A stretch of 64,000 nucleotides of DNA from Azonexus sp. Lineage in GTDB: Bacteria > Pseudomonadota > Gammaproteobacteria > Burkholderiales > Rhodocyclaceae. Every line of letters starts with the position of its first letter. The first letter of the stretch is position 1. Both the position numbers and the translations under genes were made by a program. Shown piece by piece: positions 4,063 through 60,097 of this stretch. The notes under the pieces are model-generated. The model saw only the letters and a list, made by a program, of their open reading frames with translations, made no database searches and was not told the DNA's origin. Where the stretch lies: contig JAUYEI010000018.1 in assembly GCA_030691385.1 (NCBI GenBank), positions 62,001 through 126,000 of the forward strand, in the 5' to 3' direction.

Positions 4063-4099
4063 CATTTCAATTTTGGGCAAAATTTCCGGTTGACCGTGG
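4063..4099 (+). repeat. 35-bp TTGACCGTG motif, copy A
   Basis: CATTTCAATTTTGGGCAAAATTTCCGGTTGACCGTGG. Confidence 0.85.
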
Positions 4100-4119
4100 G
4101 AGTCGCCGGAACAACGGAT

Positions 4120-8078: not shown

Positions 8079-8150
8079 TTTTCTCTCCCGGAAAGTGTTT
8101 TCTGAAAGCCGGTAACTTACTCCAAAAGGATTCGCCGACCAAGGGTGCGT

Positions 8151-8183
8151 CTTGATTTTGGCCGTTTTTTCCGGTTCACCGTA
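8151..8183 (+). repeat. 35-bp TTGACCGTG motif, copy B
   Basis: CTTGATTTTGGCCGTTTTTTCCGGTTCACCGTA. Confidence 0.75.
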
Positions 8184-8227
8184 ACAACAGCCGAAACAAG
8201 CAGTTAAAGTACCGGCTGCCGACCATT

Positions 8228-10087: not shown

Positions 10088-13000
10088 ATGACACACCCAA
10101 ACGGAGTTCGCGTGCGCCATTTCAGCCCTGCCCTGATCCATCGCCGGCTCGCCAAGGTCATCGCGCTGCTCTGCCTGCTGCTCGGGCCTGCCGCGCTCAG
10201 CGCCGACGACCTCCGCGCAGCCGGCACGCCCGACGCGCAGGCCATTCCCACGGTCAACCCGAAAAAACCGGCGAAATTCGCCATCCTGGCCAGCCGCCCG
10301 AAAGCCGAGACCGAGACGCGCTGGCAACCGCTGATTGATTATCTCAACAAGACCAATCCAGAACGACAACTGGAACTCCTCACGTTGACCTACCCGGAGT
10401 TGGAATCCGCCATCCGCGAAAAGCGGGTCGATTTCGTCCTCACCCAACCCGGCCACTACATCATGCTGACCCAGCGCGACGGCCTGCTCTCGCCGCTTGC
10501 CACGCTGATCGAAATGCAGGGCGACAAGAAGGTCGCCTCGCTCGGCGGCGTCATCCTGACCCGCAGCGATGAGAAAAACATCCGCAACCTGGCCGACCTG
10601 GCCGGCAAACGCATCGCCACGAACAGCATGAGCTCGCTGGGCGGCTACCAGGCCCAGGCCTACGAGCTCATGCGGCACGGCATCAATCCGGCAACGGACG
10701 CCAGCGTCATCGAAACCGGTCAGCCGCAGGACAAGGCCATCCAGCACCTGCTCGACGGCCGGGCCGATGTGGCCTTCGTCCGTACCGGCCTGATCGAAGC
10801 CATGGCCAGGGAACAGAAGCTGGACATCAGCCGCCTGCGTGTCATCGATGCCCGGAGCGACGGTTTTCCCCTCGCCCACTCGACCCGCCTCTACCCGCAA
10901 TGGCCGCTGGCCGCGCTGCCGTGGGCCGACCAGGATTTCGCCCGCCAGCTCGCCGCCGCCATCCTGACCCTGCCGCACGGCGGCGATGTCGCCCGCGCTG
11001 CCGACATCGCTGGCTTCGGCATTCCCGGAGACTACCGCCCGGTCGAGGAACTCCTGCGCTATTTGCGCCTGCCACCCTTCGAAGCCGGACCGACCGTCAC
11101 CGGCGACGACATCGTCAAGCAGTATGGCGGGCTCATGGCCATCCTCGGCATCAGTGCCGCCGGCGGGCTCATGTTCTTCACGACCACGCTGTTCCGCTCC
11201 AATCGGCGCCTGAAAACAGAGCGCGCCCGGACGGCGCTGGCCATGTCCGAACTGTCGGCAACCGAAGCCCGCTTCCGCGCCATTTTCGAGAATGTCGACG
11301 CGCTGTCCATCCAGGGCTATCTGGAAGATGGCACGGTCGCCTACTGGAACCACGCCTCGCAGGCGCTGTACGGATATACCCCCCACGAAGCGATCGGAAA
11401 ATCGCTGCTCGAACTGATCATCCCGCCCGAACTGCAGGACGGCGTACGCAACGCGGTGCACTGGATGTTTGCCAACAAGACCGGCGTTCCGGCCGGGCGT
11501 CTGACCCTGCGCCACAAGGACGGCCATCCGGTCGAGGTGTATTCGAGCCACACCGTCGTCGACACGGCCGACCTCGGCCCGATGATGTTCTGCCTCGACG
11601 TCGACCTGCGGCAACTGGCCAGCGCCGAGCAGGCCCTGATGGAGAGCGAGTCCCGGCAACGCATGATCCTGGAAACGCTGGGCGAGGGCGTTTTCGGCAG
11701 CGATCTCAACGGCATCTGCACCTTCATCAACCCGGCCGGCCTGGCCCTGCTCGGATTCAGCGAACAGGAAGTGCTCGGGCACAACACCCATAGCCTCTTC
11801 CACCATCATCACGCGGATGGCTCGCCTTACCCGCAGTCGACATGTCCGCTCCGGCTGACGGCAAACGATGGCAGGACACGCCGGCTCGAAGATGTTTTCT
11901 GGCGCAAGAACGGGGAAATGTTCCCGGTTCGCCTGACCATCACGCCGACGCTGCGCGACGGCCAGATCAGCGGGACGGTCGTCTCCTTCTCCGACATCAG
12001 CGAAGCGCGGCAACACGCCCAGGAACTCGAACGACACCGTCACAACCTCGAAGCCGAAGTCCGCCAGCGCACCGGGCAGCTGGAGATTGCGCGCCAGGCA
12101 GCCGAGGCGGCCAGCCGCTCGAAGAGCGCCTTCCTGGCCAACATGAGCCACGAAATCCGGACGCCGCTCAACGCCGTTCTCGGCATGGTCCACCTGCTGC
12201 GACGCGACACCCCGACGCCAACCCAGGTCGACCGGCTCGACAAGATCGACTCAGCCTCGCAGCATCTGCTCGCCGTCATCAACGACGTGCTCGACATTTC
12301 CAAGATCGAGGCCGGCAAGCTGCAGCTCGACGACACCAAGGTCGACATCAACAGCATCCTCAAGCGCGTCATTTCGGTTCTCGGTGAGCGCGCCCGCGAA
12401 AAGGGGCTGCTCCTGCAAACCGAGTCCGACGATTTCAGGCGGATGCTGATCGGCGACCCGACGCGCATCACGCAATGCCTGATCAACTACACGGCCAATG
12501 CCATCAAGTTCACCGAACGGGGCAGCATCACCGTCAGGGCACGCCGCGTCTCCGACACGGCCGGCGAAACCCTGCTGCGTTTCGAAGTCGAAGACACCGG
12601 GATCGGCATCGCCGAGGAGTCCATCCCCCGCCTGTTCGGCATTTTCGAGCAGGCCGACGCCTCGACCACCCGCAAATTTGGCGGCACCGGCCTCGGCCTG
12701 GCCATCACCCGCCGCCTCGCCCAGCTCATGGGCGGCGACGTCGGCGTCAACAGCCGGCCGGGCAAAGGAACCTGCTTCTGGTTCACCGCCCGCCTCAAAC
12801 CCCGGGCCGAGGAGCTCGATCCCATCACCTCGACCTTCGCCGGCATGCTCCTGCCGGCCATCCAGGAAACCCTGGCCGGCCGCCATGTGCTGATCGTCGA
12901 GGACGAGCCGATCAACCGCGAGATCGCCCTCGAACTGCTCAAGGAATTCGGCACCACGGCCGACACGGCAGAAAACGGCCGCGAGGCGCTCGAGCGCCTG

Positions 13001-13343: not shown

Positions 13344-13380
13344 GTTTTCAAATTGGGCCATTTTTTCCCGTTCACCGTGG
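13344..13380 (+). repeat. 35-bp TTGACCGTG motif, copy C
   Basis: TTTTCAAATTGGGCCATTTTTTCCCGTTCACCGTGG. Confidence 0.75.
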
Positions 13381-13727
13381 AAGAGGCTGCCCGGCACCGG
13401 GCGGCGCAGGGCGTTTCCATGAGTGGCCGGGGCTGTCGTAGAACACGCTGTCCCACGCCGGCGGCGCACCGTGTCGCTCTTCGGGCAGACCGGACAGATG
13501 CAGACGGCGCGTTGCGGCAGCAGGCCCTCGTCCCACAGGCCGTTGCGACAAACCCGCTTCTGCGGCGTCGCGCACAAATAACGCTCGTTGTAGGTCGCCC
13601 TGCAACACGCCGAGTTCGGCCAGCAGCTCACGCACCTGCACAGCATCCTGGCCCGGCAAGGGGGGTTTCCGGCCGGGGCGCAAGCGGCGAGGGCAGCCGC
13701 CCCACCGTACACAGGAATTCCCGTCGG

Positions 13728-19615: not shown

Positions 19616-20939
<1,324 letters not shown>

Positions 20940-20957
20940 GTTTTTCTGCGCCCCAAC

Positions 20958-20990
20958 AAAAACCCGCGAATTTCGCGGGTTTTTGTTTTT
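20958..20990 (+). terminator. Rho-independent terminator after ferredoxin gene
   Basis: AAAACCCGCGAAATTTCGCGGGTTTTT-like stem and T-tract (aacccgcgaatttcgcgggtttttgttttt). Confidence 0.9.
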
Positions 20991-21020
20991 CAGTTTCGGG
21001 CCTTTTTTACGGTTGACCGT
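20991..21020 (+). repeat. 35-bp TTGACCGTG motif, copy D
   Basis: CAGTTTCGGGCCTTTTTTACGGTTGACCGT. Confidence 0.75.
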
Positions 21021-21028
21021 AGCAAGCC

Positions 21029-21060
21029 CGGTTGACCGCGGGAATCGCCGCGGTCAACCG
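21029..21060. repeat. Perfect 12-bp inverted repeat of the TTGACCG core
   Basis: CGGTTGACCGCG-ggaatcgc-CGCGGTCAACCG at the 3' end of the dynamin-like gene. Confidence 0.9.
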
Positions 21061-21061
21061 T

Positions 21062-23011
21062 TCAGGCCGCCTGCAATTCCCGGATATCGAGCGGCACCAG
21101 CATATCCTGAACGCGACCGACAATTTCCTCGAGCGCCTCGATCTGCTGCTGCAGGTTTTGCTCGACGCCATCGAGTTCGGCGATGCGGTCTTCCAGCGTA
21201 TCGGTCGCCTGATGGATGCGCTTGATGCTTTCCAGACGGCGCTTGAGCTGGATCTGGTGCTCGCGCACCTGAGTTTCCATTGGCGCCATGATGGCGCGCA
21301 GCCAGACTTCGGCATCGCGGTTGGCATGCTCGAAAGCGCGCCGTACCTGGGTGGCCACCTCCTCGAAGAATTTCTGCGTGATGTTCTTCTTGTCGTGGGT
21401 AAGCAGGCTGACCATCGTGTTGAGGTGATCATCGCACCAGGCCTGCAGACGATCGAGCTCCTTCTCGTAGCGGAGCAGCGAGAAGGTGGTCGGCGAACCG
21501 AGCTTGAGTCCGTGCTCGATGGCGAACTTCTTGTAAACCGCCTCCATCATCGACAGGATTTCGCTGATTTCCTTGTTCGACTTGTCCAGCGCACTGCGCG
21601 AACCGGCAAAGAAGCCGGCCATCGCATCGGACAAGGTCTTGGAAAATGCAGCATCGAGCATCGTTTCGCGCGTTTCGTGCGTCAACTGGCGCAGAACGTC
21701 GAGGCCGAGGTGGCTGAACAGGTTGTTGGTCAGCGTTGAAAACACACTGCGCACGGCGTAGTAGCGTTGCAGGCCGGACTCGAACTCGTCTTTTTCCGCC
21801 CGCACCTTGCCCATCATGTACTCGACGACGCCCTTGTTCTTGCCACGCAATTCGGTCAGTTCGGTCAGTTGCTCGCGCAGGCCGAGGAGACGGGAGTCGA
21901 GCAGACCGCGCACGCGCTGGGTGACATCGCCGAACTCGCTTTCGGTGCTCTCGCAGACGATGTCGCGTTTGGCCGGAATGAGTTCTTTCGAGAGCGCCGC
22001 TTCGAGCAAGGACAGACGGCTCTTTTCGAGCAAGGCTGCATCACCGTTGATTTTGGCGACCAGACCCTTTTGCGCCGAAACAGGGAAAACCTGGCTGACC
22101 GGCAAGTCGAGAATGGCGGCACTGCTGTCGGCCTGACGCTGGATTTCCGCGTCGATTTCCTCGGTGGACTTCAATTCGTCCCACTGGCCGTCGATCTTGT
22201 TGAGGACGACCATCCGGCCACGCTGAGCCATGCCGCCGCCGCAAATATGCTCGCGCCAGATGGCCAGATCGGATTGGGTGACGCCGGTATCGGCCGCCAG
22301 AATGAAGAGCACGGCATGGGCATTGGGCAACAGCGAGAGGGTCAGTTCCGGCTCGGCGCCGATGGCATTGAGACCCGGCGTGTCGAGAATGACCAGACCC
22401 TGCTTAAGCAGCGGGTGCGGAAAATTGATCATGGCGTGCCGCCAGCGCGGCACTTCGACCAGACCGTCGTCGCCGATCACGTAGAGGTCGATCTGCCCCT
22501 GACCAACCTCGAAACCGAGACGGCCGGCCTCTTCGGGCGTCACCCGGGTCGTTTCGCTGACGTGGCGCAGGGCGTCCTGCATGGCATCCGGCGACTCGGT
22601 ATCGAGCGAAACTTTCGTCCACTCGTCGGCAAAACGCTTGTATTCGCTGACACTGGAATTCGAGGCCCGCGTCTGGATCGGCAGCAGCTCGATGCACGGC
22701 AGCTTGTTGCCGTCGAACAGCAGTTCCGTCGGACACATGGTGGTCCGGCCGGCTGACGAAGGCAGCATCCGGTTGCCGTAGTCGGCGAAGAAAATGGCGT
22801 TGATCAGTTCCGACTTGCCACGTGAGAACTCGGCAACAAAGGCGACATTGAGCCGGTCTTCACGCAGGCGTTCGAGCAGTTGCGTCAGGCGCAGGTCGCT
22901 CTGGGCATCGGACAGCTCGTTGTTATTCAGCCAGCCCTGAAGCTCAGCAATATAAGTAGCCAGGCGCGAACGCCAGGCGGTATAGGCAGCGAATTGGTTG
23001 GCGAGCGACAT
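21062..23011 (-). CDS. Dynamin-like GTPase
   Basis: VAFVAEFSRGKSELINAIFFADYG, GLVILDTPGLNAIGAEPEL, LNKIDGQWDE. Confidence 0.88.
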   Translation of the reverse strand: MSLANQFAAYTAWRSRLATYIAELQGWLNNNELSDAQSDLRLTQLLERLREDRLNVAFVAEFSRGKSELINAIFFADYGNRMLPSSAGRTTMCPTELLFDGNKLPCIELLPIQTRASNSSVSEYKRFADEWTKVSLDTESPDAMQDALRHVSETTRVTPEEAGRLGFEVGQGQIDLYVIGDDGLVEVPRWRHAMINFPHPLLKQGLVILDTPGLNAIGAEPELTLSLLPNAHAVLFILAADTGVTQSDLAIWREHICGGGMAQRGRMVVLNKIDGQWDELKSTEEIDAEIQRQADSSAAILDLPVSQVFPVSAQKGLVAKINGDAALLEKSRLSLLEAALSKELIPAKRDIVCESTESEFGDVTQRVRGLLDSRLLGLREQLTELTELRGKNKGVVEYMMGKVRAEKDEFESGLQRYYAVRSVFSTLTNNLFSHLGLDVLRQLTHETRETMLDAAFSKTLSDAMAGFFAGSRSALDKSNKEISEILSMMEAVYKKFAIEHGLKLGSPTTFSLLRYEKELDRLQAWCDDHLNTMVSLLTHDKKNITQKFFEEVATQVRRAFEHANRDAEVWLRAIMAPMETQVREHQIQLKRRLESIKRIHQATDTLEDRIAELDGVEQNLQQQIEALEEIVGRVQDMLVPLDIRELQAA

Positions 23012-23077
23012 GCGGCGTCCTTCCCGGGCAATCGGAAACTTCAATTTAGCATAAATACATAGACTTGCAGAGCAATT

Positions 23078-23911
23078 TTAATGCTGGCAGCCAGTGCAGT
23101 AATAGGTACTCCGGCCGGCCTGGCGAATTTGTCTGACCACGCCACCGCAGCGCAGACAGGGTTGTCCGGCCCGGTCATAGACGCCGGCCTGGATCTGGAA
23201 CCAGCCGGCACTGCCGTCACTGTGCACGTAGTCACGAATGCTGCTGCCGCCCGCTGCGATGGCATCCGACAAGGTTTGGCGAATGGCCGCCACGAGCAAT
23301 TCATAGCGCGCCCGGCTGATCCGGTTGGCCGCCCGCAGCGGCGAAATGCCGGCGCGGAACAGACTCTCCGAGGCATAGATGTTGCCGATGCCGACGACCA
23401 GATGGCTGTCCATCAGGGTCGGCTTGATCGGCCCGCTGCGTTTCGAAATTGACGAAAAAATCCAGTTGACCGTGAAATCGTCCGACAAGGGCTCGATCCC
23501 CTGCGTCGCCAGCAAGGGATGCAGCTCAGCCGCCTCGGGTGGCCCCGGTTGCCAGAGCACGACGCCGAAACGGCGTGGATCGGCCAGACGCAAACTCTGC
23601 CCGGCCAGCACCAGATCAAAATGATCGTGCTTGGCCGGTGGCAGGTCGCGCGACACGAAACGCAGGTTGCCCGACATGCCGAGGTGGATGATCAGGCTCC
23701 CTTGAACGCCCGCGCGTTGACAGTCGATCAGCAGGTACTTGCCACGTCGGCGCACAGCAACGATGCCGCAGCCCGGCAACAGGTCGATCAAGGCTCGCGG
23801 AATCTCCTGACGCAGCTTCGGCGCACGAATGATCACGCCCTCGATCAGCCCGCCTTCGAGCTCCGGCGCCAAGCCGCGACGACATACTTCCACCTCCGGC
23901 AATTCCGGCAT
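23078..23911 (-). CDS. mutM: Formamidopyrimidine-DNA glycosylase
   Basis: MPELPEVEVCRRGL; GIGNIYASESLFRAGI; C-terminal zinc finger CLRCGGVVRQIRQAGRSTYYCTGCQ. Confidence 0.96.
   Translation of the reverse strand: MPELPEVEVCRRGLAPELEGGLIEGVIIRAPKLRQEIPRALIDLLPGCGIVAVRRRGKYLLIDCQRAGVQGSLIIHLGMSGNLRFVSRDLPPAKHDHFDLVLAGQSLRLADPRRFGVVLWQPGPPEAAELHPLLATQGIEPLSDDFTVNWIFSSISKRSGPIKPTLMDSHLVVGIGNIYASESLFRAGISPLRAANRISRARYELLVAAIRQTLSDAIAAGGSSIRDYVHSDGSAGWFQIQAGVYDRAGQPCLRCGGVVRQIRQAGRSTYYCTGCQH
23440..23476 (+). repeat. Degenerate 35-bp TTGACCGTG motif, copy J (inside mutM)
   Basis: GTTTCGAAATTGACGAAAAAATCCAGTTGACCGTGAAA. Confidence 0.45.
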
Positions 23912-33099: not shown

Positions 33100-33136
33100 C
33101 ATTTCATTTTTGGCCATTTTTTCCGGTTGACCGTGA
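33100..33136 (+). repeat. 35-bp TTGACCGTG motif, copy E
   Basis: CATTTCATTTTTGGCCATTTTTTCCGGTTGACCGTGA; contains the GTG start of the yceI-like gene. Confidence 0.9.
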
Positions 33137-33690
33137 GAATCCTCCCCGCCCTGCTTTTTGCCGCCTGTCTGCCCCTGGCCAACGCCGCCGAATACGTCAT
33201 CGACCCGGCGCACACCTATGCCAGCTTCGAAATCGACCATCTCGGCTTTTCGACGCAACGCGGCCAGTTCAACAGCAGCAGCGGCATCGTCGAATTCGAC
33301 GCGGAGGAAAAAACCGGGCGCATCGACATCAGCATCGAAACCGCCTCGCTCGACACCGGTTTTGAATTGCGCGACGACGTGCTGCGCGGTGACGACTGGT
33401 TCAAGGCCAGAGACTTCCCCTACATTTTCTTTCGCAGCCAGAAGCTCATTTTCAGCGAAGAAAAACTCAGCGCCGTTGAGGGCTCGCTCGTCATGCTCGG
33501 CGAAAGCCGGCCGCTGCGCCTCGAGGTCACGCGCTTCAAATGCGGGCTCAACGTCGCCAGCCGCCAGCGGGGCTGCGGAGCCGACGCCGTCGGCGTCCTG
33601 CGCCGTTCCGAATTCGGCCTGAGCAACGGCATCCCCTTCATCGGCGACGAAGTCCGCCTGCGCGTCCAGGTCGAAGCCTATCTGCCCTGA
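33133..33690 (+). CDS. YceI family periplasmic protein
   Basis: Signal peptide; AEYVIDPAHTYASFEIDHLGFSTQRGQF. Confidence 0.88.
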   Translation: MRILPALLFAACLPLANAAEYVIDPAHTYASFEIDHLGFSTQRGQFNSSSGIVEFDAEEKTGRIDISIETASLDTGFELRDDVLRGDDWFKARDFPYIFFRSQKLIFSEEKLSAVEGSLVMLGESRPLRLEVTRFKCGLNVASRQRGCGADAVGVLRRSEFGLSNGIPFIGDEVRLRVQVEAYLP

Positions 33691-36858: not shown

Positions 36859-37327
36859 CCTCAATTTCCTGATCGCCCACCCGGCGCACTTTTTCGCGCT
36901 GGGCTGTGGCAGCGGGCTGGCCCCGAAGGCGCCGGGCACCTTCGGGACGCTGTTCGCGTGGGCGATGTTCGCCCTCTTTCACCACCATTTTTCCGATTTT
37001 GGCCTGTTTTTCCTGTTGACCGTGGCATACCTCGGCGGCATCTGGTTCATCGACGTCACCGGCCGGGCCATCGGCGACCCTGACCACGGCAGCATTGTCT
37101 GGGACGAGATCGTGCCCTTCTGGCTCATCCTGCTCATGACGCCGCCCACTTTCCTCTGGCAACTGGCCGCCTTCGCGCTGTTCCGCTTTTTCGACATCAC
37201 CAAGCCGCAGCCGGCCCGCTATTTTGACGAACATGTCAAAAACGGCTTTGGCGTCATGGCCGACGACCTTGTCGCCGCCGGCTACACTTTGCTCTGCCTG
37301 GCCCTGCTCAAGATCGTTTTCGCCTGA
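36842..37327 (+). CDS. pgpA: Phosphatidylglycerophosphatase A
   Basis: GCGSGLAPKAPGTFGTL...DHGSIVWDEIVPFW; TTG start overlapping thiL. Confidence 0.92.
   Translation: MAKRPDLNFLIAHPAHFFALGCGSGLAPKAPGTFGTLFAWAMFALFHHHFSDFGLFFLLTVAYLGGIWFIDVTGRAIGDPDHGSIVWDEIVPFWLILLMTPPTFLWQLAAFALFRFFDITKPQPARYFDEHVKNGFGVMADDLVAAGYTLLCLALLKIVFA
36986..37025 (+). repeat. 35-bp TTGACCGTG motif, copy F (inside pgpA)
   Basis: CATTTTTCCGATTTTGGCCTGTTTTTCCTGTTGACCGTGG. Confidence 0.75.
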
Positions 37328-37672: not shown

Positions 37673-40939
<3,267 letters not shown>

Positions 40940-48537: not shown

Positions 48538-49185
48538 ATGCCGGAAAGCGATGCCCAGCACCTGAGCTTCAAACTGGTCTATTACGGCCCGGCGCAGAGC
48601 GGCAAGACGACCAATCTGCTGCGCCTGCACGACCTGCTCGCCCCGGAACTGAAGGGCGAGGTCATGACCATGGAGTCCTAGGACGACCGCACGCTGTTCT
48701 TCGATCTGCTGCCCCTCGGCTTTCGCGCGCCATCGGGGCTGCTCATCAAGTTCCGGCTGTTCACCGTGCCCGGCCAGGTCGCCCACGACGGCACGCGCAA
48801 GGCCGTGCTGTCGCGTGCCGATGGTGTGGTTTTCGTGGCCGACGCCGACCGCGCCCAGGAAACCAACAACGGCGAATCCTTCCAGAGCCTGGCCGCCAAC
48901 TGTGCCCGTGTCGGGCTGGATTTCGAGCACCTGCCGATGGTCGTCCAGTTCAACAAGTGCGACCTGCCGAATGCCGTTCCCGAGGCCGAAATCCGCGAAC
49001 GCTGGTCGGCCGCGCCGTGGCCGCTGGTCTTTGCCGTCGCCGTGAGCGGGCAGGGCATAGCAACGACCTTTGAATTGCTCATTCGCACGGTGTACCGGAA
49101 TTTTGGCCCGAATTTGAAATTGCAGACGGAACACGGCCTCAGTGAAGACGCCTTCGTCGCCGGCGCCCTGGGGAAAAGTGCATGA
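48538..49185 (+). pseudogene. MglA-like small GTPase interrupted by one in-frame TAG (48679-48681)
   Basis: FKLVYYGPAQSGKTTNLLRLHDLLAPELKGEVMTMES-TAG-DDRTLFFDLLPLGF...FRLFTVPGQVAHDGTRKAVLSRADGVVFVADADRAQ...VVQFNKCDLPNAVP; same frame on both sides of TAG. Confidence 0.88.
49086..49123 (-). repeat. 35-bp TTGACCGTG motif, copy G (inside MglA-like GTPase)
   Basis: Reverse complement CAATTTCAAATTCGGGCCAAAATTCCGGTACACCGTG. Confidence 0.65.
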
Positions 49186-56329: not shown

Positions 56330-57784
56330 ATGAATCTGCAAAACACCGACTTGCTACGGTCAACCGGAAAAATTGGCCAAAATTGGAATGCCGCCGACGA
56401 CGGTTCGACCTTCGCCGTGATCAACCCGGCGACCGGCGAGCAGATCGGCGAAGTGCCGCTCTGCGGCGCCGCTGAAACCCGCCGCGCCATCGACGCGGCC
56501 AACGCCGCCTGGCCGGCCTGGCGCGCCCTGACCGCCCGCCGTCGTGCCCAGATTCTGCAGACCTGGAACCGGCTGATCCTCGACAACGTCGACGACCTGG
56601 CGCAGATCATCACCGCCGAATGCGGCAAGCCGCTGGCCGAAGCCAAGGGCGAGGTCATTTACGGCGCCTCGTTCATCGAATGGTTTGCCGAAGAAGGCAA
56701 GCGCACCTACGGCGAAAGCATCCCCAGCCCGGCGTCGAATACGCGCCTGATCGTCATCAAGCAGCCGATCGGCGTCTGTGCCGCCATCACGCCGTGGAAT
56801 TTCCCCTTCGCCATGATCACCCGCAAGGTCGCACCGGCCCTGGCCGCCGGTTGCCCCGTCGTCATCAAGCCGGCCGAAGCGACGCCGCTCAGCGCGCTGG
56901 CGCTGGCCGTGCTGGCCGAGCTGGCAGGTTTCCCGCCCGGCGTCCTCAACGTGGTCACCGGCAAACCGGCCGAAATCGGCGGCGAACTGTGCGCCAGCCC
57001 CATCGTCCGCAAGCTGTCGTTTACCGGCTCGACCGGCGTCGGCCGGCTGCTCATGGCGCAATGCGCGCCGACCATCAAAAAACTGTCGCTCGAACTCGGT
57101 GGTAACGCGCCCTTCATCGTTTTCGACGACGCCGACGTCAATGCCGCGGTCGACGGCGCTTTGGCGGCAAAATACCGCAACACCGGCCAGACCTGCGTCT
57201 GCGCCAACCGCTTTCTCGTGCAGTCGGGCATCTACGAGGAATTCGCCACCAAGTTCGCCGAGAAAGCCCGTGGCTTGAAAGTCGGCGACGGCACCGAAGC
57301 TGGCGTCGCCCAAGGTCCGCTGATCAACGCCGCCGGCCTGAGCAAGGTCGAGGCCCATGTCGCCGATGCGCTCGCCAAGGGCGCCCGCGTGCTGTGTGGC
57401 GGCGCCCGGCACGAACGCGGTGGCAACTTCTTCCAGCCGACCGTGCTGGCCGACGTGACGACTGCCATGCAGGTCGCCCGCGAGGAAACCTTCGGCCCGG
57501 TCGCCCCACTTTTCAAGTTCGAGACCGAGGCCGAAGCCATCGCCATGGCCAACGACACCGAGTTCGGACTGGCCGCCTACTTCTTCACACGCGATGTCGG
57601 CCGTTGCTGGCGGGTGGGTGAGGCGCTCGAATACGGCATGGTTGGCGTCAACACCGGGCTCATTTCCAACGAAGTCGCCCCCTTCGGCGGCATCAAGCAA
57701 TCGGGCCTCGGCCGCGAAGGCTCGAAGTACGGCATCGAGGACTACCTCGAAATCAAATATCTCTGCTTCGACATCAATAGCTGA
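56330..57784 (+). CDS. gabD: NAD(P)-dependent succinate-semialdehyde dehydrogenase family protein
   Basis: TPWNFPFAMITRKVAPALAAGCPVVIKPAEATP; LELGGNAPFIVFDDAD; NTGQTCVCANR. Confidence 0.93.
   Translation: MNLQNTDLLRSTGKIGQNWNAADDGSTFAVINPATGEQIGEVPLCGAAETRRAIDAANAAWPAWRALTARRRAQILQTWNRLILDNVDDLAQIITAECGKPLAEAKGEVIYGASFIEWFAEEGKRTYGESIPSPASNTRLIVIKQPIGVCAAITPWNFPFAMITRKVAPALAAGCPVVIKPAEATPLSALALAVLAELAGFPPGVLNVVTGKPAEIGGELCASPIVRKLSFTGSTGVGRLLMAQCAPTIKKLSLELGGNAPFIVFDDADVNAAVDGALAAKYRNTGQTCVCANRFLVQSGIYEEFATKFAEKARGLKVGDGTEAGVAQGPLINAAGLSKVEAHVADALAKGARVLCGGARHERGGNFFQPTVLADVTTAMQVAREETFGPVAPLFKFETEAEAIAMANDTEFGLAAYFFTRDVGRCWRVGEALEYGMVGVNTGLISNEVAPFGGIKQSGLGREGSKYGIEDYLEIKYLCFDINS
56355..56390 (-). 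repeat. 35-bp TTGACCGTG motif, copy H (inside gabD 5' end)
   Basis: Reverse complement CATTCCAATTTTGGCCAATTTTTCCGGTTGACCGTA. Confidence 0.9.
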
Positions 57785-59309: not shown

Positions 59310-60097
59310 GCGCGACGCAGGCTGACATCGCCGGAAAATATGCGTTCGATCCCGGCCGCGGTTTCGAGCAGCAGCGCGCCATCGTCATCGACGCCGAGGC
59401 AGCGACCGCGCTTCGGATCTACTCCATCGCCGAGAATTTGCACGGCCTGATCCTGCCAGGCGTGGTATTGCTGCCATTTCATTTTCAGCCCAAAAAACCG
59501 GTTGACCGTGAAAGTGTCGAGTACGGCCGCCAACTGGCCGAGGATGGCGGCCAGGACATCGTGGCGATCAATTGGCTGCGGACAAGCCTGGCTCAAACCA
59601 GCCGCCGGCTGCGGCAGATCGCCCGTTGGCGGCGCCAGATTGAGGCCGATGCCGATGATGGCCTGCGTGCCACGTCGGTCGGAGGAAAGTTCGATCAGGA
59701 TGCCGGCCAGTTTGGCAAAATCGTCGCCGGAACGCAGCAGCACGTCGTTCGGCCATTTCAGGCAAACGCCCTTGGCGCCGAGGTTTTCCATGGCTTGAGC
59801 GAGGCCGACCCCGACAGCCAGCGACAAGCCGCTCAAGCTGGCCGCATTGCCGGGAAATCGCCAAAGCAGGGAAAAGGTCAGGCTCGATTCGGGCGATGAC
59901 AACCAGCTCCGCCCGCGCCGGCCGCGCCCGGCGCTTTGCCGGTCAGCGACCACAACCGAGCCGGACGGCGCGCCGCGCTCGGCCCGGCGCATCAGTTCGC
60001 TGCTCGTCGAGTCGCATTCGTCCAGCGCGTCGACGTCGAAGCGGCCGGCCAGGCTAGCCAGCCGCGCTTTCAACAAGACAGGATCGATCAATGTCAT
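59306..60097 (-). CDS. birA: Biotin-[acetyl-CoA-carboxylase] ligase
   Basis: DECDSTSSELMRRA...VVADRQSAGRGRRGRSW...LKWPNDVLL. Confidence 0.93.
   Translation of the reverse strand: MTLIDPVLLKARLASLAGRFDVDALDECDSTSSELMRRAERGAPSGSVVVADRQSAGRGRRGRSWLSSPESSLTFSLLWRFPGNAASLSGLSLAVGVGLAQAMENLGAKGVCLKWPNDVLLRSGDDFAKLAGILIELSSDRRGTQAIIGIGLNLAPPTGDLPQPAAGLSQACPQPIDRHDVLAAILGQLAAVLDTFTVNRFFGLKMKWQQYHAWQDQAVQILGDGVDPKRGRCLGVDDDGALLLETAAGIERIFSGDVSLRRA
59474..59513 (+). repeat. 35-bp TTGACCGTG motif, copy I (inside birA)
   Basis: CATTTCATTTTCAGCCCAAAAAACCGGTTGACCGTGAAA. Confidence 0.8.

Follow-up and report, generated by a model that had tools for sequence, protein, structure and literature searches.

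A putative DNA uptake sequence-like motif in the Azonexus/Dechloromonas clade, and an inverted pair of its core at a convergent gene end

Within the window, by which we mean the whole 64,000-nucleotide stretch of Azonexus sp. DNA analysed here, a ferredoxin gene and a dynamin-like gene converge on a gap that is densely occupied by short sequence features, as follows.

20682–20939, plus strand: 4Fe-4S ferredoxin gene, the convergent neighbour of the dynamin-like gene, with its stop ending at 20939.
20955–20987, both directions: predicted bidirectional intrinsic terminator, common to the ferredoxin and dynamin-like genes and kept in relatives.
20986–21026, plus strand: copy D, a full copy of the motif described below (core 21010–21019; 45.1 bits), which several close relatives keep at the orthologous position.
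21029–21060, no strand assigned: inverted pair with a 13-bp stem and a 6-nt loop, its core-like arms lacking T-tracts.
21062–23044, minus strand: dynamin-like GTPase gene (Pfam Dynamin_N, E 3.5e-14).

The two 12-nt arms of the pair, CGGTTGACCGCG at 21029–21040 and CGCGGTCAACCG at 21049–21060, are exact inverted repeats, as an earlier sequence-only reading of this locus had claimed, and the complementarity runs 1 bp further than that reading gave it: in its longest form the stem joins CGGTTGACCGCGG (21029–21041) to CCGCGGTCAACCG (21048–21060) around the loop GAATCG. Folded as minus-strand RNA, the pair reaches –28.7 kcal/mol, with a z-score of –5.9 against dinucleotide shuffles. The complement of the dynamin-like stop codon, TCA, occupies 21062–21064, so that the pair begins 1 nt past the stop. 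Its reported place beyond the 3′ end of this gene is therefore confirmed, as is its adjacency to copy D, from whose core it is separated by 9 nt.

The core that the arms resemble is strongly over-represented genome-wide. The window has eight copies of the word CGGTTGACCG where 0.20 would be expected, and the 3.45-Mb genome has 422, compared with 63 of a reversed control; the degenerate form of this word, GTYGACCGYR, reaches 1041 copies in this genome against 120 for the reversed control. A shared pattern upstream of the core first became visible in the flanks of the copies, and the core proved to be the conserved part of a motif of ~41 bp, ATTTCAATTTTGGCCnnTTTTTCC-GGTTGACCGTGGnAAT, in which two T-rich tracts lie about one helical turn apart and are followed by (C)GGTTGACCGTGG. 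A profile drawn from ~440 kb of this genome (ATTTCAATTTTGGCC..TTTTTCC GGTTGACCGTGGgAaT) places a distal AT tract near –18 and a proximal T tract near –6 before the core, each about one helical turn on. With this full profile, 88 sites scoring 16 bits or more were detected in the sample of this genome, roughly 0.2 full motifs per kb, and none with the reversed profile. The statistics on coding position, spacing and substitution come from ~400-kb samples of six genomes. The 41-bp profile found 88–208 matches per sample of about this size, on both strands and with 50–79% of them within genes; reversed profiles gave 0–1. The window holds the following sites besides copy D.

4063–4103, plus strand: full motif, intergenic, 61 bits.
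8148–8188, plus strand: full motif with core GGTTCACCG, intergenic, 44 bits.
10244–10284, minus strand: full motif within a gene, 43 bits.
13344–13384, plus strand: full motif with core CGTTCACCG, intergenic, 49 bits.
23439–23479, plus strand: full motif within a mutM-like gene that runs on the opposite strand; no gap in the alignment to D. agitata.
33100–33140, plus strand: full motif of 62 bits, lying across the GTG start of a YceI-family gene.
36989–37029, plus strand: full motif within a gene, 49 bits.
40406–40446, minus strand: weaker motif within a gene, 30 bits.
49081–49121, minus strand: motif within a gene, core GGTACACCG, 41 bits.
56350–56390, minus strand: full motif within a gene, 59 bits, also in the orthologs of two relatives (G251 and G256).
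59475–59515, plus strand: full motif within a biotin ligase gene that runs on the opposite strand; no gap in the alignment to motif-free D. agitata.

Since the copy at 33100–33140 overlaps the predicted GTG start, its final bases encode the first codons of the YceI-family gene. Two further repeat features were seen alongside the motif. At four loci (L001, L002, L010 and L025) motif copies continue into a common stretch near TTTTTTGCGCTACAYCCGTCGAACCCGGAC, a longer dispersed repeat joined to the motif, and the sample of this genome (L154–L173 plus the window) contains other over-represented 10-mers that do not belong to the motif, namely AAACCTCAGT/TTGAAACCTC (13–17 copies) and CTACCGACTA (11 copies).

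A GC-rich core in a GC-rich genome could in principle arise by chance from composition or codon bias, an explanation to which we assign next to no probability: it is refuted by the contrast between reversed and true profiles, and by Markov z-scores of 20–40 for the core words both here and in G251, and the AT tracts run contrary to the composition of the genome.

Knowledge of the full motif also bears on the inverted pair, which the sequence-only reading had taken to double as a terminator and so to support a function for the core. Like an intrinsic (Rho-independent) terminator, the pair forms a strong GC-rich hairpin directly after a stop codon. A genome-wide search recovered two more exact pairs, both between convergent genes, one of them separating ffh from a lytic transglycosylase-like gene and the other a chemotaxis kinase-like gene from a photolyase gene, the latter with an ortholog in G251. 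Hence all three exact pairs of the genome lie between convergent genes and one is conserved, from which we conclude that such hairpins do settle at convergent gene ends, though rarely: with a spacer of up to 30 nt there are only these three among 422 exact cores, and full-motif pairs at most 100 bp apart are no commoner in the samples than by chance. The pair between the chemotaxis kinase-like and photolyase genes has 14-bp arms and a loop of 3–4 nt, and is kept in two species (L033 1500–1530; G251, ~5.8 kb into L136).

That two uptake sequences form, in the pair at 21029–21060, an intrinsic terminator for the dynamin-like gene, in the manner of Neisseria and Haemophilus, is nevertheless quite unlikely. 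In those genera the extended motif starts with A residues (PMC1852404), which gives an inverted pair a T tail; here the T-tract lies on the opposite side of the core, and the DNA beyond the hairpin is A-rich or mixed. Neither strand shows a U-tract after the stem, and a terminator scan around the pair returned a single match, the separate U-tailed hairpin at 20955–20987, which is likely to terminate both the ferredoxin and the dynamin-like gene. At the orthologous place relatives keep this terminator and lack the pair, several genomes retaining copy D beside the ferredoxin terminator, and a pair was found there only in L034, formed by copy D itself and with another spacer. The missing U-tract and the adjoining, conserved terminator lead us to reject the standard terminator reading. 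What stands of the proposal is a hairpin at a convergent gene end; the arms score 6.6 and –8.1 bits on the motif profile, against 45.1 for copy D, and the pair is a local by-product, two core-like arms beside one true site, and no standard terminator.

Comparison of the dynamin-like protein puts this genome among Azonexus and Dechloromonas, its nearest relatives being unclassified assemblies of Rhodocyclaceae and Azonexaceae. Among the seven closest genomes, six carry 383–490 copies of CGGTTGACCG each; the remaining one, an assembly of 2.5 Mb, has 189. An unbiased scan of 10-mers ranked GTTGACCGTG on top in this genome and in G251, and GTTGACCGCA together with GTTGACCGTG in G256; sister cores led in A. 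fungiphilus (G274; GTCGACCGTG/GTCGACCGTC) and in D. denitrificans (G265; GTCGACCGCA), and the same scan of D. agitata (G266) gave no comparable word. There are 2440 copies of GTYGACCGYR in Azonexus sp. R2A61 (G271) against 227 for the control, and 1765 in A. hydrophilus against 240; the pattern is at background level in most motif-negative genomes, and shows no comparable excess elsewhere in the family (118 genomes from 67 other genera).

The clade thus contains species dialects around an invariant centre, and the geometry of two AT tracts, centred about –18 and –6 to –8, recurs in every dialect. Two genomes, G259 and G260, have the T-tract layout around a GCCGACCG core, which is modest as a bare 10-mer (GGCCGACCGY, 200 versus 141 and 311 versus 152 copies); having considered them motif-free, we rejected that assignment on the strength of these T-tract sites. 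On the tree of the dynamin-like protein the motif trait requires six changes, which would agree with a single gain and some five losses. In the close sisters G257 and G258 (the L041 and L042 genomes) the motif is weak, with 277 copies versus 192 for the control and 16 T-tract sites, or has vanished, with no T-tract site left, possibly through recent decay.

Many copies lie in coding DNA. With a gene caller trained separately on each sample, sites within genes amounted to 51 of 88 in this genome, 48 of 96 in G251, 80 of 118 in G256, 164 of 208 in A. fungiphilus and 89 of 120 in D. denitrificans, and the T-tracts are retained at coding sites. Pooled from five genomes, 84 coding sites had a D. 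agitata ortholog that could be aligned across the site, a figure in which orthologous sites of sister genomes are counted repeatedly; 74 of them align without gaps to the motif-free D. agitata genes. The copy in the biotin ligase gene is an example, its TGCCATTTCATTTTCAGCCCAAAAAACCGGTTGACCGTGAAAGTGTCGAGT pairing base for base with the motif-free ortholog, and G251 and G256 are one base off the core there. The gapless alignments indicate that the motif arose in place by point substitution, and not as an inserted element. Amino-acid identity to D. agitata is 0.53 in the motif compared with 0.75 in the flanks, so that the motif comes at a cost to proteins.

These alignments speak against a mobile element of the REP/BIME or MITE kind, dispersed by hundreds of insertions. 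Hundreds of alike copies of ~41 bp would suit such an element, as would the extra downstream sequence that the L001, L002, L010 and L025 copies have in common and the enrichment between genes, and the motif resembles REP/BIME and MITE elements in being dispersed, partly palindromic and often intergenic. It differs from them in that about half or more of its sites are genic and came about by substitution; its ends are not fixed, and its dialects shift genome-wide. The gapless coding alignments, in which gain by insertion is not what is seen, largely refute a mobile origin, and we regard it as very improbable.

The arrangement of sites along the chromosome, for the most part an even one, is likewise informative. 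Neighbours closer than 500 bp are fewer than expected in three of four contiguous samples (3 versus 10.7, 4 versus 16.1 and 6 versus 16.7), with no such deficit in A. fungiphilus, and both strands are occupied in each 100-kb block of the contiguous samples. Intergenic sites favour convergent gaps (58 versus 35.4 expected) over divergent ones (31 versus 52.4 expected; p 9e-6). Motif density tracks GC in three of four samples, the AT tracts notwithstanding, and the large motif deserts are low-GC stretches. One such desert, of 40 kb in G256 (L118–L120, G256:C1 ~1.68–1.72 Mb), has an expected number of 9e-4, is low in GC, and carries genes for a tyrosine integrase, a type I R-M system (two N6-methylase/HsdR-like) and a GmrSD-type endonuclease, so that it is probably a defence-bearing genomic island. 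Spacing, strand use, deserts and convergent bias together form the pattern expected of uptake sequences kept by biased uptake and recombination, a pattern that a regulator or a transposing repeat does not fit.

The same data speak to another explanation, a binding site for a cytoplasmic protein that organises or repairs DNA (nucleoid, segregation, Chi-like or global regulator). Such a site could occur in many copies clade-wide, also in coding DNA, and could account for a conserved geometry with bent AT tracts; the use of both strands within 100-kb blocks, the scarcity in divergent promoter regions, the absence from acquired islands, the dialect shifts and repeated losses among sister species, and the cost to proteins all argue against it, and we consider it unlikely.

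A DNA uptake sequence system in Rhodocyclales would be the simplest explanation of these genomic patterns, and the core probably belongs to such a system in the Azonexus/Dechloromonas clade. The functional-looking, uptake sequence-like nature of the core that had been proposed from the window is strongly backed by the genome-wide counts, the dialects and the in-gene origin by substitution, all of it indirect evidence. Where uptake sequences are known, type IV pilus proteins bind them at the cell surface, the receptors being ComP in Neisseria, established by experiment, and ComN/PpdA in Pasteurellaceae, by prediction (PMC12616744). Most likely, then, a type IV pilus or competence pilin at the surface would bind the motif preferentially; cells that are naturally competent would thereby import DNA of their own kind; and this bias in uptake, together with recombination, would have spread and kept ~1000 copies, as species dialects, across Azonexus and Dechloromonas.

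By analogy, a minor pilin should be the reader, and this genome has a minor-pilin cluster, although such pilins are also found in motif-free relatives. PF16732 (ComP_DUS) matches 31 of 32 genomes and PF12019 (GspH/FimT) all 32, motif-free ones included, so that among these genomes presence of either family does not track the motif; as both match motif-positive and motif-negative genomes alike, we name no receptor candidate. ComEC and DprA, present in 32 of 32 genomes, do not discriminate either, since motif-free relatives and E. coli have both. In A. hydrophilus ZS02 (G273; one part with a TAG) and in the L035 genome (G251) the ComEC match falls into two separate places, reflecting either assembly breaks or broken genes.

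Strong uptake preference was attributed in 2020 to two families only, the Pasteurellaceae and Neisseriaceae (PMC7811141). The uptake signal of H. influenzae (USS) is AAGTGCGGT with two AT tracts (PMC7811141, PMC1852404), and that of the Neisseriaceae (DUS) is GCCGTCTGAA and its dialects (PMC3630211). The present motif shares with the Pasteurellaceae USS a short GC-containing core with two AT-rich tracts on one side, about one helical turn apart, in hundreds to thousands of copies, genic and intergenic, with dialects. Its core is unrelated, however: AAGTGCGGT occurs 0–2 times in the ~400-kb samples, at or below control, hairpin pairs here lack T tails, and the clade is betaproteobacterial and largely environmental. 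With the Neisseriaceae DUS it has in common an over-represented 10–12-mer with species dialects, an invariant centre and a preference for convergent gene ends; again the core is unrelated (GCCGTCTGAA 0–3 copies in ~400 kb, equal to control), and the motif here has a long T-tract flank, with inverted pairs that are rare and not terminator-like. Motif density is also higher in Haemophilus and Neisseria than in this genome. The motif appears to fit the DUS/USS class in every genomic test run, and belongs to neither homologous family. Searches for the core string gave primers and unrelated text only, among the matches listed; in the literature searched, we found no paper on uptake sequences in Dechloromonas or Rhodocycl-, and for Azonexus and natural competence only snail gut metagenomes.

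Probably the Rhodocyclales have a third, separately evolved system for the uptake of self-DNA, with its own core and dialects and a two-tract layout convergent on that of the Pasteurellaceae, one that shapes proteins and whose absence marks acquired islands. The Pasteurellaceae and Neisseriaceae with uptake preference are mostly animal-associated mucosal bacteria (PMC7811141); if true, a third lineage with uptake specificity, in bacteria of sludge and sediment, would be an independent replicate, bearing on why uptake specificity evolves and what the AT tracts do, on how dialects split species, and on the need for DNA competition on mucosa. It would also predict natural transformability, present or recent, and with it a practical route to genetics in these organisms, and the motif would give a marker of acquired DNA in their genomes.
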